A DNA stretch of 45,208 bases from Candidatus Kuenenia stuttgartensis (GTDB lineage Bacteria; Pseudomonadota; Alphaproteobacteria; SMXS01). Made by a program: the position numbers and the translations under genes. Where the stretch lies: NCBI GenBank assembly GCA_943329845.2, contig CALQFM020000030.1, positions 1 to 45,208 on the forward strand, in the 5' to 3' direction. The notes under the pieces are model-generated. The model made no database searches, was not told where the DNA came from, and was given only the letters and a program-made list of their open reading frames with translations. This document shows, one piece after another, positions 13,638 to 15,341 of this stretch; the first letter of the stretch is position 1, and every line of letters begins with the position of its first letter.

Positions 13638-14099
13638 TTAGAACGTCATCGCCATCCGGCTCTTCGGGTTGAGGATCTCCTGGAACTCAACCACGTTGCC
13701 GTCCGGGTCGCGGGCGTAGGTGGTCAGCACGGTGCCCTTGCCCAGCCATTGGGGCTCGCAGTGGAACGGCACGCCGGCGGCCTTCAGCCGGGCGTATTCG
13801 GCGGGCAGGTCGACCACGTCGAAGCAGATATGGGTCAGGCCGTGGTTGCAGACCGGCCGGTTCGGGTCGCCCGTTTCCGGCACCGGCCGGGCGTATTCGA
13901 ACAGCTCGATATGGGCGTTGGCGGCGCGCAGCATGGCGACGCGCCCCTTGGCGCCGGGCAGGGCGGTGATCGCCTCGATCTCGGCGCCGCTGAAATCGAC
14001 CTCGAACAGCACCTCAATGCCGACCAGGTCGCGGTAAAAGCCCAGCAGGCGGTCCAGGTCGCCGGTCGAGATGGAGGTGTGGTGGATACCCCTGATCAT
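13638..14099 (-). CDS. VOC-family (glyoxalase/dioxygenase-like) protein
   Basis: A 153-residue vicinal-oxygen-chelate protein with two beta-alpha-beta-beta-beta modules. IRGIHHTSISTGDLDRLLGFYRDLVG in parts is the first module, with metal ligand His in the H-H-T-S start; HICFDVVDL and DPDGNVVEFQE supply the second His and the Glu. The pattern H...E...H...E suggests an intact metal site, as in glyoxalase I or methylmalonyl-CoA epimerase relatives. The ATG at 14099 follows GGGGAGAA by five bases; an earlier in-frame start at 14138 lacks such a site. Substrate unknown. Confidence 0.87.
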   Translation of the reverse strand: MIRGIHHTSISTGDLDRLLGFYRDLVGIEVLFEVDFSGAEIEAITALPGAKGRVAMLRAANAHIELFEYARPVPETGDPNRPVCNHGLTHICFDVVDLPAEYARLKAAGVPFHCEPQWLGKGTVLTTYARDPDGNVVEFQEILNPKSRMAMTF

Positions 14100-14198: not shown

Positions 14199-14555
14199 TC
14201 AAGCCGGCGATTCGTCAGATTGTCGCGCTGACTTGCCGCCATTTCTCGCGGGTGCCTGGCACGCGTCACGCTCGGCAACCCATGATTTCATGGATAAGCA
14301 ACTCCCGGTTGTTTTTGCGCGGGCAGGAAAGTGGCTTAAATATGGCATTTTTACGGCGCCGCATTTACGCATACCGGTAATGTCCCAATGGAGGTAGACG
14401 ATGTTGCGGCGCACACATAAGTTTAGTTCTGTCACCACGAAGTAACGGTTCAGCGTGGTGGCCCCGAAGGCCTCCTCATATTGAGGCCGAGGGTTGGTGG
14501 CCCTGCTTTCCTCCCCGTTTCCAGGGCCGCCCATTTCATCGTCTCCCCAAGACAT
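14199..14555 (-). CDS. Doubtful ORF, 118 aa, antisense to the candidate RNA
   Basis: An open frame of 118 codons begins at ATG 14555 with AGGGAAG five bases upstream and starts MSWGDDEMGGPGNGEE. No family is recognised. Its third-position G+C looks lower than in neighbouring genes, it has rare codons (TTA, CTA, AGA) and the C-terminal half looks like translated non-coding DNA. The same bases on the plus strand form a row of hairpins, which explains the sequence better. A second short frame on this strand starts at an ATG just after GGGGAGAC (14541-14548 complement) and ends after about 30 codons. Kept as a low-confidence alternative. Confidence 0.25.
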   Translation of the reverse strand: MSWGDDEMGGPGNGEESRATNPRPQYEEAFGATTLNRYFVVTELNLCVRRNIVYLHWDITGMRKCGAVKMPYLSHFPARAKTTGSCLSMKSWVAERDACQAPARNGGKSARQSDESPA

Positions 14556-14605
14556 GAAGTCTTCCCTGATTTGCCGGGCTCGCAAGAGCCCGGCATTTCT
14601 CTTTT
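14433..14605 (+). ncRNA. Candidate trans-acting small RNA with anti-Shine-Dalgarno loops
   Basis: Five consecutive hairpins are visible on the plus strand: CACCACG/CGTGGTG (14433-14439 with 14454-14460); GGCCTC/GAGGCC (14469-14474 with 14483-14488, with CCTCCTC running from the stem into the loop); GGCCCTG/CAGGGCC (14499-14505 with 14522-14528, loop containing CCTCCCC); AAGAC/GTCTT (14549-14553 with 14559-14563); and a 9-bp terminator hairpin (14573-14594) followed by ATTTCTCTTTT. Between hairpins 3 and 4 the unpaired linker holds GTCTCCCC (14541-14548). Pyrimidine-rich CCUCC motifs exposed in loops are a hallmark of alphaproteobacterial sRNAs (alpha-r14 and CCUCCUCCC 'cuckoo' classes). The 5' end is not defined and could lie near 14340-14430. 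No plus-strand gene precedes the terminator, which argues for an independent transcript. Confidence 0.5.
14573..14605 (+). terminator. Intrinsic terminator of the candidate small RNA
   Basis: A perfect 9-bp stem GCCGGGCTC/GAGCCCGGC with a GCAA tetraloop is followed by ATTTCTCTTTT. The T-rich side is on the plus strand only; on the minus strand the hairpin is followed by AAATCAGGG, so it works for plus-strand transcription. Confidence 0.8.
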
Positions 14606-14711
14606 GGGGCCCCGATCGTTTCCCGCCGATTAAATGCACGCGTGATTTTTCGCTTGGTTCGCGCCGCCGCGCGTTCCATGCTGTGCCGCGAAATCCAGCG
14701 GGGAGAGATCA

Positions 14712-15341
14712 ATGAGCATTATCCTGGGGCCCATCGTACAGCAGGGCTATGTGGTGCCCGACGTGCGGGAGAAGTTGCCTTATTTCATCGACATCGGCGT
14801 CGGCCCGTTCTTCATCCGCGACCGCTTCGACGTGGTTGGCGGCAACTGCACCTATCGGGGCCAGGAGCAGACCTTCAACATCACCGCCGCCTTCACCTAT
14901 TCGGGCGAGCACCAGTTCGAGCTGATCTGCCACCACAACGAGGGTCCGTCGGTCTACAAGGACTTCCTGAAGGACCATCCGGAAGGCGGCCTGCAGCACG
15001 TGGCGGTCTGGGCCGACAACATCGACGAGGAACTGGCCCGGCTGAAGGCGCTGGGCGAGGACTTCGAGGTCCTGCAGCGCTTCAACGAGCTCGACTGCTA
15101 CATCAAGAAGCCGGGATTTCCCTGGCCGATCATCCAGCTGATGGCCACGGTGGAACGCCACCGGCGCATGTTCACCATGGTGAAGTACTATACCGACCGC
15201 TACGACGGGACCCGGCCGATCCGCTTCATCGACGAAGAGCTGAAGCTGTTCTACGGACCGGGCGGCCCGGGCGTGGGCATGGACACCTGGGAAGTGACCA
15301 AGGCGCCGGGGCGCGAGCGGGTGCTGCAGCCCGCCGGCTGA
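14712..15341 (+). CDS. VOC-family protein, methylmalonyl-CoA epimerase-like
   Basis: A 209-residue protein with a glyoxalase/VOC fold: QQGYVVPDVREKLPYFIDIGVGPFF in parts forms the first module and GGLQHVAVWADNIDEELARLKALG the second, with the conserved H-V-A. The C-terminal ~60 residues (after HRRMFTMVKYYTDRY) are longer than in the small VOC proteins and resemble the group often found with Rieske oxygenases and acyl-CoA dehydrogenases in sphingomonads and relatives. The first metal ligand position is Q-Q-G instead of H, so the metal site may be altered. The start follows GGGGAGAG by four bases. Substrate unknown. Confidence 0.85.
   Translation: MSIILGPIVQQGYVVPDVREKLPYFIDIGVGPFFIRDRFDVVGGNCTYRGQEQTFNITAAFTYSGEHQFELICHHNEGPSVYKDFLKDHPEGGLQHVAVWADNIDEELARLKALGEDFEVLQRFNELDCYIKKPGFPWPIIQLMATVERHRRMFTMVKYYTDRYDGTRPIRFIDEELKLFYGPGGPGVGMDTWEVTKAPGRERVLQPAG

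Follow-up and report, generated by a model that had tools for sequence, protein, structure and literature searches.

Does the run of hairpins on the plus strand of contig CALQFM020000030.1, at positions 14433–14605, mark a small regulatory RNA (sRNA), and if so, to which family does it belong? We addressed this question in a 45,208-nt stretch of alphaproteobacterial DNA (the window, meaning the whole stretch that was analysed), for which a prediction from the letters alone had proposed an sRNA with exposed anti-Shine–Dalgarno (anti-SD) motifs. That proposal is strongly supported by covariation, invariant loops, a conserved promoter, fixed genomic places for two copies and a class-wide family. 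The best explanation, which we regard as likely, is that the element is one of two copies (copy B) of an anti-SD sRNA family linked to lsrB, and that it would be repressed by PhaR, possibly activated by LsrB, and would itself repress metabolic mRNAs.

A structured RNA under selection

On the plus strand, which carries all of the features described here unless stated otherwise, the segment 14433–14605 forms a series of five predicted hairpins, the final one being an intrinsic terminator followed by a T-rich tail. Its minimum free energy is −81.3 kcal/mol, compared with a mean of −55.0 kcal/mol for dinucleotide shuffles (z = −6.84, 0/200). Fold and terminator prediction thus confirm the arrangement originally proposed, as does the orientation of the nearest upstream gene, which encodes a VOC protein at 13638–14099 on the minus strand and leaves no plus-strand gene before the hairpins.

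The RNA would span 14429–14605, about 177 nt from its predicted start. Hairpin 1 (14433–14460) is seen only in the genus of the window, with no counterpart in the sister genus, and its covariation is weak. Hairpin 2 (14469–14488) carries the invariant loop CUCAUAUU and shows changes on both sides of 7 of its 10 model pairs; in hairpin 3 (14496–14531), 8 of 13 pairs change in this way around a conserved loop with the anti-SD sequence CCUCCCC. Hairpin 4, GUCUCCCCAAGAC (14533–14560), begins the module shared across the class, and is followed by an unpaired pyrimidine linker, CTTCCCTGATTT (= CUUCCCUGAUUU; 14561–14572), whose class counterpart is CCUCCCUGUU and whose TCTTCCC portion (UCUUCCC in the RNA) is strongly conserved. 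The terminator and its U tail occupy 14572–14605. Three anti-SD motifs had been placed in loops or in the linker, and this placement stands in part: CCTCCCC (14510–14516) lies wholly in the loop of hairpin 3, but CCTCCTC (14471–14477) has its first CCTC in a stem and only CTC in a loop, and GTCTCCCC (14541–14548) is likewise divided between a GTCT in a stem and a CCCC in a loop.

A genome search found homologues elsewhere in the genus and the family and, across nine related genomes, these homologues keep the stems through compensatory change while the loops stay unchanged, including the invariant loops CUCAUAUU and CCUCCCCGUU. When 15 sequences were aligned to a structural model (R1), and four antisense terminator rows were left out of the count, both-side changes occurred at 18 of 42 pairs and 95.2% of cells were paired; slid controls reached no more than 5 such pairs and 48% of cells. 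Alignment to the model favours the structure in these counts; an alignment made by MAFFT alone already gave 7 pairs with both-side change. The element is a structured RNA under selection.

Two genomic places and a class-wide family

A second copy of the RNA (copy A), 79% identical to the window copy, is present in the same genome, and the two copies occupy fixed places in most genomes of the genus. Copy A lies directly 3′ of trxB–lsrB, with a TetR-family gene next to it and uvrB beyond, whereas copy B, the window copy, is flanked by two VOC-family genes in five species. The closest solved structure to the LysR-type protein at the copy A locus is that of Agrobacterium LsrB (9HH1, E = 3e-93). 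The window copy is a diverged paralogue, a duplicate, of copy A. One further copy (L033, G006:C50) has neither lsrB nor VOC surroundings, and a third location therefore seems to exist in one species. Copies of the sRNA of this genus also occur at four loci (L087–L090) in public metagenome-assembled genomes (JALHLV010000004.1, CAMDTB010000071.1 and CAMDTB010000003.1), whose labels, ‘Sphingomonadales bacterium’ and ‘Rhizobium sp. Q54’, look doubtful.

Beyond the genus, model R1 gave weaker matches in other alphaproteobacterial families. Of the 25 loci retrieved from among these matches (L058–L082), 15 immediately follow an lsrB orthologue that is itself preceded by trxB, an adjacency that played no part in the search. 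From 12 of the loci we built a second model, R2, of the 3′ module only (the GUCUCCC hairpin, the pyrimidine linker and the terminator), leaving the genus of the window and its two sister genera out of the training set. With its own family thus held out, the window copy was recovered at 40.6 bits and E = 4e-11, although E-values of both models are rough. R2 has matches in 211 of 385 alphaproteobacterial genomes and LsrB orthologues are found in 227 of the 385, often 53–61% identical and following trxB where this was checked. In at least 79 genomes, a lower bound counted among the matches listed for genomes with a listed LsrB, the RNA follows lsrB in the same orientation at a distance of 144–606 nt. 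The usual spacing is 150–300 nt, and the position is the one at which AbcR1 and AbcR2 are found in Rhizobiales. By its match to model R2, the window RNA belongs to a class-wide family of predicted sRNAs linked to lsrB.

Two observations on this distribution stand apart. The spread of LsrB conflicts with the title of a section in PMC11975290, by which LsrB would be unique to Rhizobiales; and in three genomes (G242, G175 and G212) the 3′ module was matched 5–7 times each, which suggests local expansion of the sRNA family.

Promoter, putative regulators and proposed action

Upstream of the RNA, a predicted −35 element, GTAGAC (14394–14399; CTGGAC in paralogues), and a predicted −10 element, ATAAGT (14417–14422; CTAAAT or CTAACT in paralogues), were read by eye in an alignment of the promoters. 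The pair is 17 bases apart in the aligned copies, for comparison with the alphaproteobacterial promoter CTTGAC-N17-CTATAT (PMC8844928); a simple sigma-70 scan of the stretch did not list the predicted −35 element.

Two putative regulator sites accompany this promoter. The first, at 14369–14381 (about −61 to −49), is a degenerate LsrB/VtlR-type box, GCAT-ACC-GG-TAA-T, with a half-dyad GCATTTACGCAT at 14361–14372; the published LsrB box has the consensus GCAT-N3-TG-N3-T at −61 to −49 (PMC8844928). Copies adjoining lsrB carry this consensus or close variants at the same position, copy A at L028 and L031 fitting it with GCAT-GCC-TG-ATT-T. Among 38 lsrB-linked intergenic regions from across the class, 28 contain the dyad ATGC-N5-7-GCAT (shuffled mean 1.15, maximum 4). 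The second site, TTGCGGCGCACA at 14404–14415, lies in the spacer between the −35 and −10 elements and is a perfect PhaR-type operator by sequence, the core of the PhaR motif being YGCRNYGCR (PMC12542648). Alignment shows this core conserved in copies from both the genus of the window and its sister genus, and it is found in 25 of the 38 lsrB-linked regions (shuffled mean 4.9, maximum 10). The window genome carries a PhaR gene and three phasin genes. An extended pattern, TTGCRNYGCAMA, occurs 10 times in the genome: two sites are upstream of the two sRNA copies and, of the remaining eight, two lie before phasin genes and one before the gene of a TesB-like thioesterase. The candidate PhaR operators outside the sRNA loci that we note individually are G000:C7:84494, C9:32069, C56:11435 and C87:6081, which go with the TesB-like thioesterase, one other gene and the two phasins.

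From these sites, the window sRNA is probably repressed by PhaR. Because its PhaR operator is perfect and its LsrB box degraded, its control may differ from that of copy A, as the control of AbcR2 differs from that of AbcR1. Transcription would begin at about 14429 from the sigma-70-type promoter and yield an independent, trans-acting sRNA of about 177 nt. PhaR, a storage-polymer regulator, would repress the RNA from the spacer operator until titrated away, and activation by LsrB from the −61 region would be likely for copy A and doubtful for the window copy. Single-stranded CCUCCCC in loop 3 and CUUCCCU in the linker would suit pairing with ribosome-binding sites, to which they would be offered, and the outcome would be lowered translation of metabolic mRNAs. 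We infer each of these steps (transcription, binding of PhaR and LsrB, mRNA pairing and control of translation), together with dependence on Hfq and the targets. For AbcR1 and AbcR2, pairing with ribosome-binding sites has been shown genetically (PMC8844928).

Candidate targets came from a crude complementarity scan of 2.03 Mb with 1849 called genes, in which the top 70 genes were compared with 70 controls matched for Shine–Dalgarno sequence. The leading candidates are oxidoreductases (short-chain dehydrogenases, P450s and Rieske enzymes) and not ABC transporters. A scan of this kind neither proves targets nor supports a role in transport, and the idea that transporters are the targets was not supported.

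Several observations weigh against the explanation favoured here. No Rfam family matches the window RNA or its close relatives at threshold. Solute-binding proteins show no excess among the top candidates of the 1849-gene scan, the power of which is low. The LsrB-type box of the window has GCAT in the right place but GG in place of TG, and a dyad with one base fewer than in copy A. Genome-wide, the 10 occurrences of TTGCRNYGCAMA compare with 6 for the reversed control, which is no clear enrichment. Finally, at about 11 loci roughly 80 nt separate the LsrB-type dyad from a PhaR-like site, a distance that places the latter at the start of the RNA, and a PhaR-like palindrome at the RNA 5′ end in many other families could serve an RNA hairpin. 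In the genus of the window, the site lies in the spacer, 5′ of the predicted RNA start, so that a role in the DNA fits better.

Alternative readings and known small RNAs

The alternative that survives best accepts a real sRNA of the lsrB-linked family but not the proposed input from PhaR and LsrB, the RNA being constitutive or under other control. Regulation was deduced wholly from motifs, the window LsrB box is degenerate and the PhaR pattern is short. However, the motifs are enriched at lsrB-linked promoters, the operator is conserved within the −35/−10 spacer and the same motif stands upstream of phasins, and we consider this alternative unlikely.

Less probable still is a cis-acting leader, that is, an attenuator or riboswitch-like 5′ untranslated region of the VOC gene at 14712. 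This gene is on the same strand, the terminator ends about 105 nt 5′ of its start codon, and its ribosome-binding site, GGGGAGAG (14698–14714), is complementary to the RNA, ranking near 49th of 1849 in the complementarity scan. Yet the gene after copy A, whose structure is the same, is an unrelated one of the TetR family, copies across the class hold their place after lsrB and not before any given gene, and no alternative anti-terminator fold is evident in the RNA. Complementarity of GGGGAGAG to the UCUCCCC of the RNA also marks the VOC gene as a possible local target.

Compared with known systems, the RNA is best read as an AbcR/SorX-like anti-SD sRNA that is a formal member of neither family by Rfam. 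Its position, through copy A, and its working parts are AbcR-like; its 3′ module resembles that of SorX. The AbcR pair of Agrobacterium and Sinorhizobium adjoins lsrB/vtlR, which in Agrobacterium follows trxB, and LsrB controls AbcR1, as described in publications that include PMC8844928. AbcR1 and AbcR2 (alpha-r15, RF02345; Rhizobiaceae and Brucellaceae) thus resemble copy A in lying directly after trxB–lsrB/vtlR. Like this RNA, they occur as two copies per genome and carry anti-SD sequence in both a hairpin loop and an unpaired linker; their sigma-70-type promoter has a box between −61 and −49, where the predicted promoter of the window copy has its degenerate counterpart. They differ in size and shape, AbcR having 114–121 nt and three hairpins and this RNA about 177 nt and five. 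AbcR copies are in tandem, whereas the present copies are at separate loci; the window copy itself sits between VOC genes, adjacency to lsrB being held by copy A and the class relatives. The PhaR operator is a further difference from AbcR, and targets of the AbcR transporter type are not supported here. The ar15 model matched nothing in the window, either at threshold or in a permissive scan; its best and only match in the genome (15.6 bits, cut-off 40) is on a different contig, and a class-wide search found no match anywhere, its controls included, and so says nothing of ar15 elsewhere.

SorX (RF02784) of Rhodobacter sphaeroides is alike in its 3′ module, with a hairpin, a CCUCCCUGUU-type linker and a terminator, and two lsrB-linked relatives (L063 and L135) score above the Rfam threshold for SorX. 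The window copy, with three further hairpins, scores 18.3 bits, short of the cut-off of 46.6, and its own predicted promoter argues against processing from an mRNA 3′ untranslated region of the SorX type. MmgR/suhB (RF00519) has a similar module (hairpin, CCUCCCU linker and terminator), but MmgR is 77 nt long and the window copy scores 13.9 bits on that model, below the cut-off of 41. We know of no linkage of MmgR to lsrB. In S. meliloti, PhaR represses MmgR (PMC12542648).

These likenesses allow a wider reading, which we put forward tentatively and hold at somewhat below even chances: one ancient sRNA family would reside at lsrB in much of the Alphaproteobacteria, with AbcR, SorX and perhaps MmgR as its descendants in separate lineages; its promoter would integrate LsrB (redox) and PhaR (carbon storage), and in the window duplicate the PhaR input would have been retained and the LsrB input relaxed. 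Accounts of AbcR concern Rhizobiaceae and Brucellaceae, and those of SorX concern Rhodobacter; a shared 3′ module would tie together sRNAs that have been studied separately. Present in more than half of the sampled alphaproteobacterial genomes, that module is found chiefly at the lsrB locus; if the reading holds, an anti-SD sRNA would stand in a core redox circuit of the class, and the recurrent PhaR-type operator would allow a connection of storage polymer with redox state and translation to be tested directly.

The original prediction had instead looked to the alpha-r14 and CCUCCUCCC classes. Stress sRNAs of the CCUCCUCCC or cuckoo type (alpha-r14, SmelA075, RS0680a/CcsR) do share serial hairpins with pyrimidine anti-SD loops, but the nine-base CCUCCUCCC is absent from 14429–14605, the loops differ, no Rfam family matches at threshold and the locus is another one, in synteny with lsrB. 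This placement is not supported and we judge it very improbable; an AbcR-like position and a SorX-like 3′ module point to the lsrB/vtlR-linked group. Equally improbable is a dual-function or small-protein mRNA translated from a 14-codon frame, MLRRTHKFSSVTTK (14402–14446), which is preceded by GGAGG at good Shine–Dalgarno spacing in the window copy. Its start codon and Shine–Dalgarno sequence are missing from copy A and from the majority of the other copies, and part of the predicted promoter, as well as the predicted start site, falls within the frame; a small protein from this frame was rejected because the frame is not conserved.

Hardly credible is a minus-strand gene with the stems as a by-product of its codon structure: the window does hold a 146-codon antisense open frame, a 111-codon part of which a simple gene caller accepts, but the protein-level conservation that the original prediction had named as counter-evidence is not seen. 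In five species copy A has a stop codon that interrupts this frame inside the RNA, and in others the frame is shifted, so that an antisense gene was rejected; the stems covary as RNA and the class-wide module is independent of the frame.
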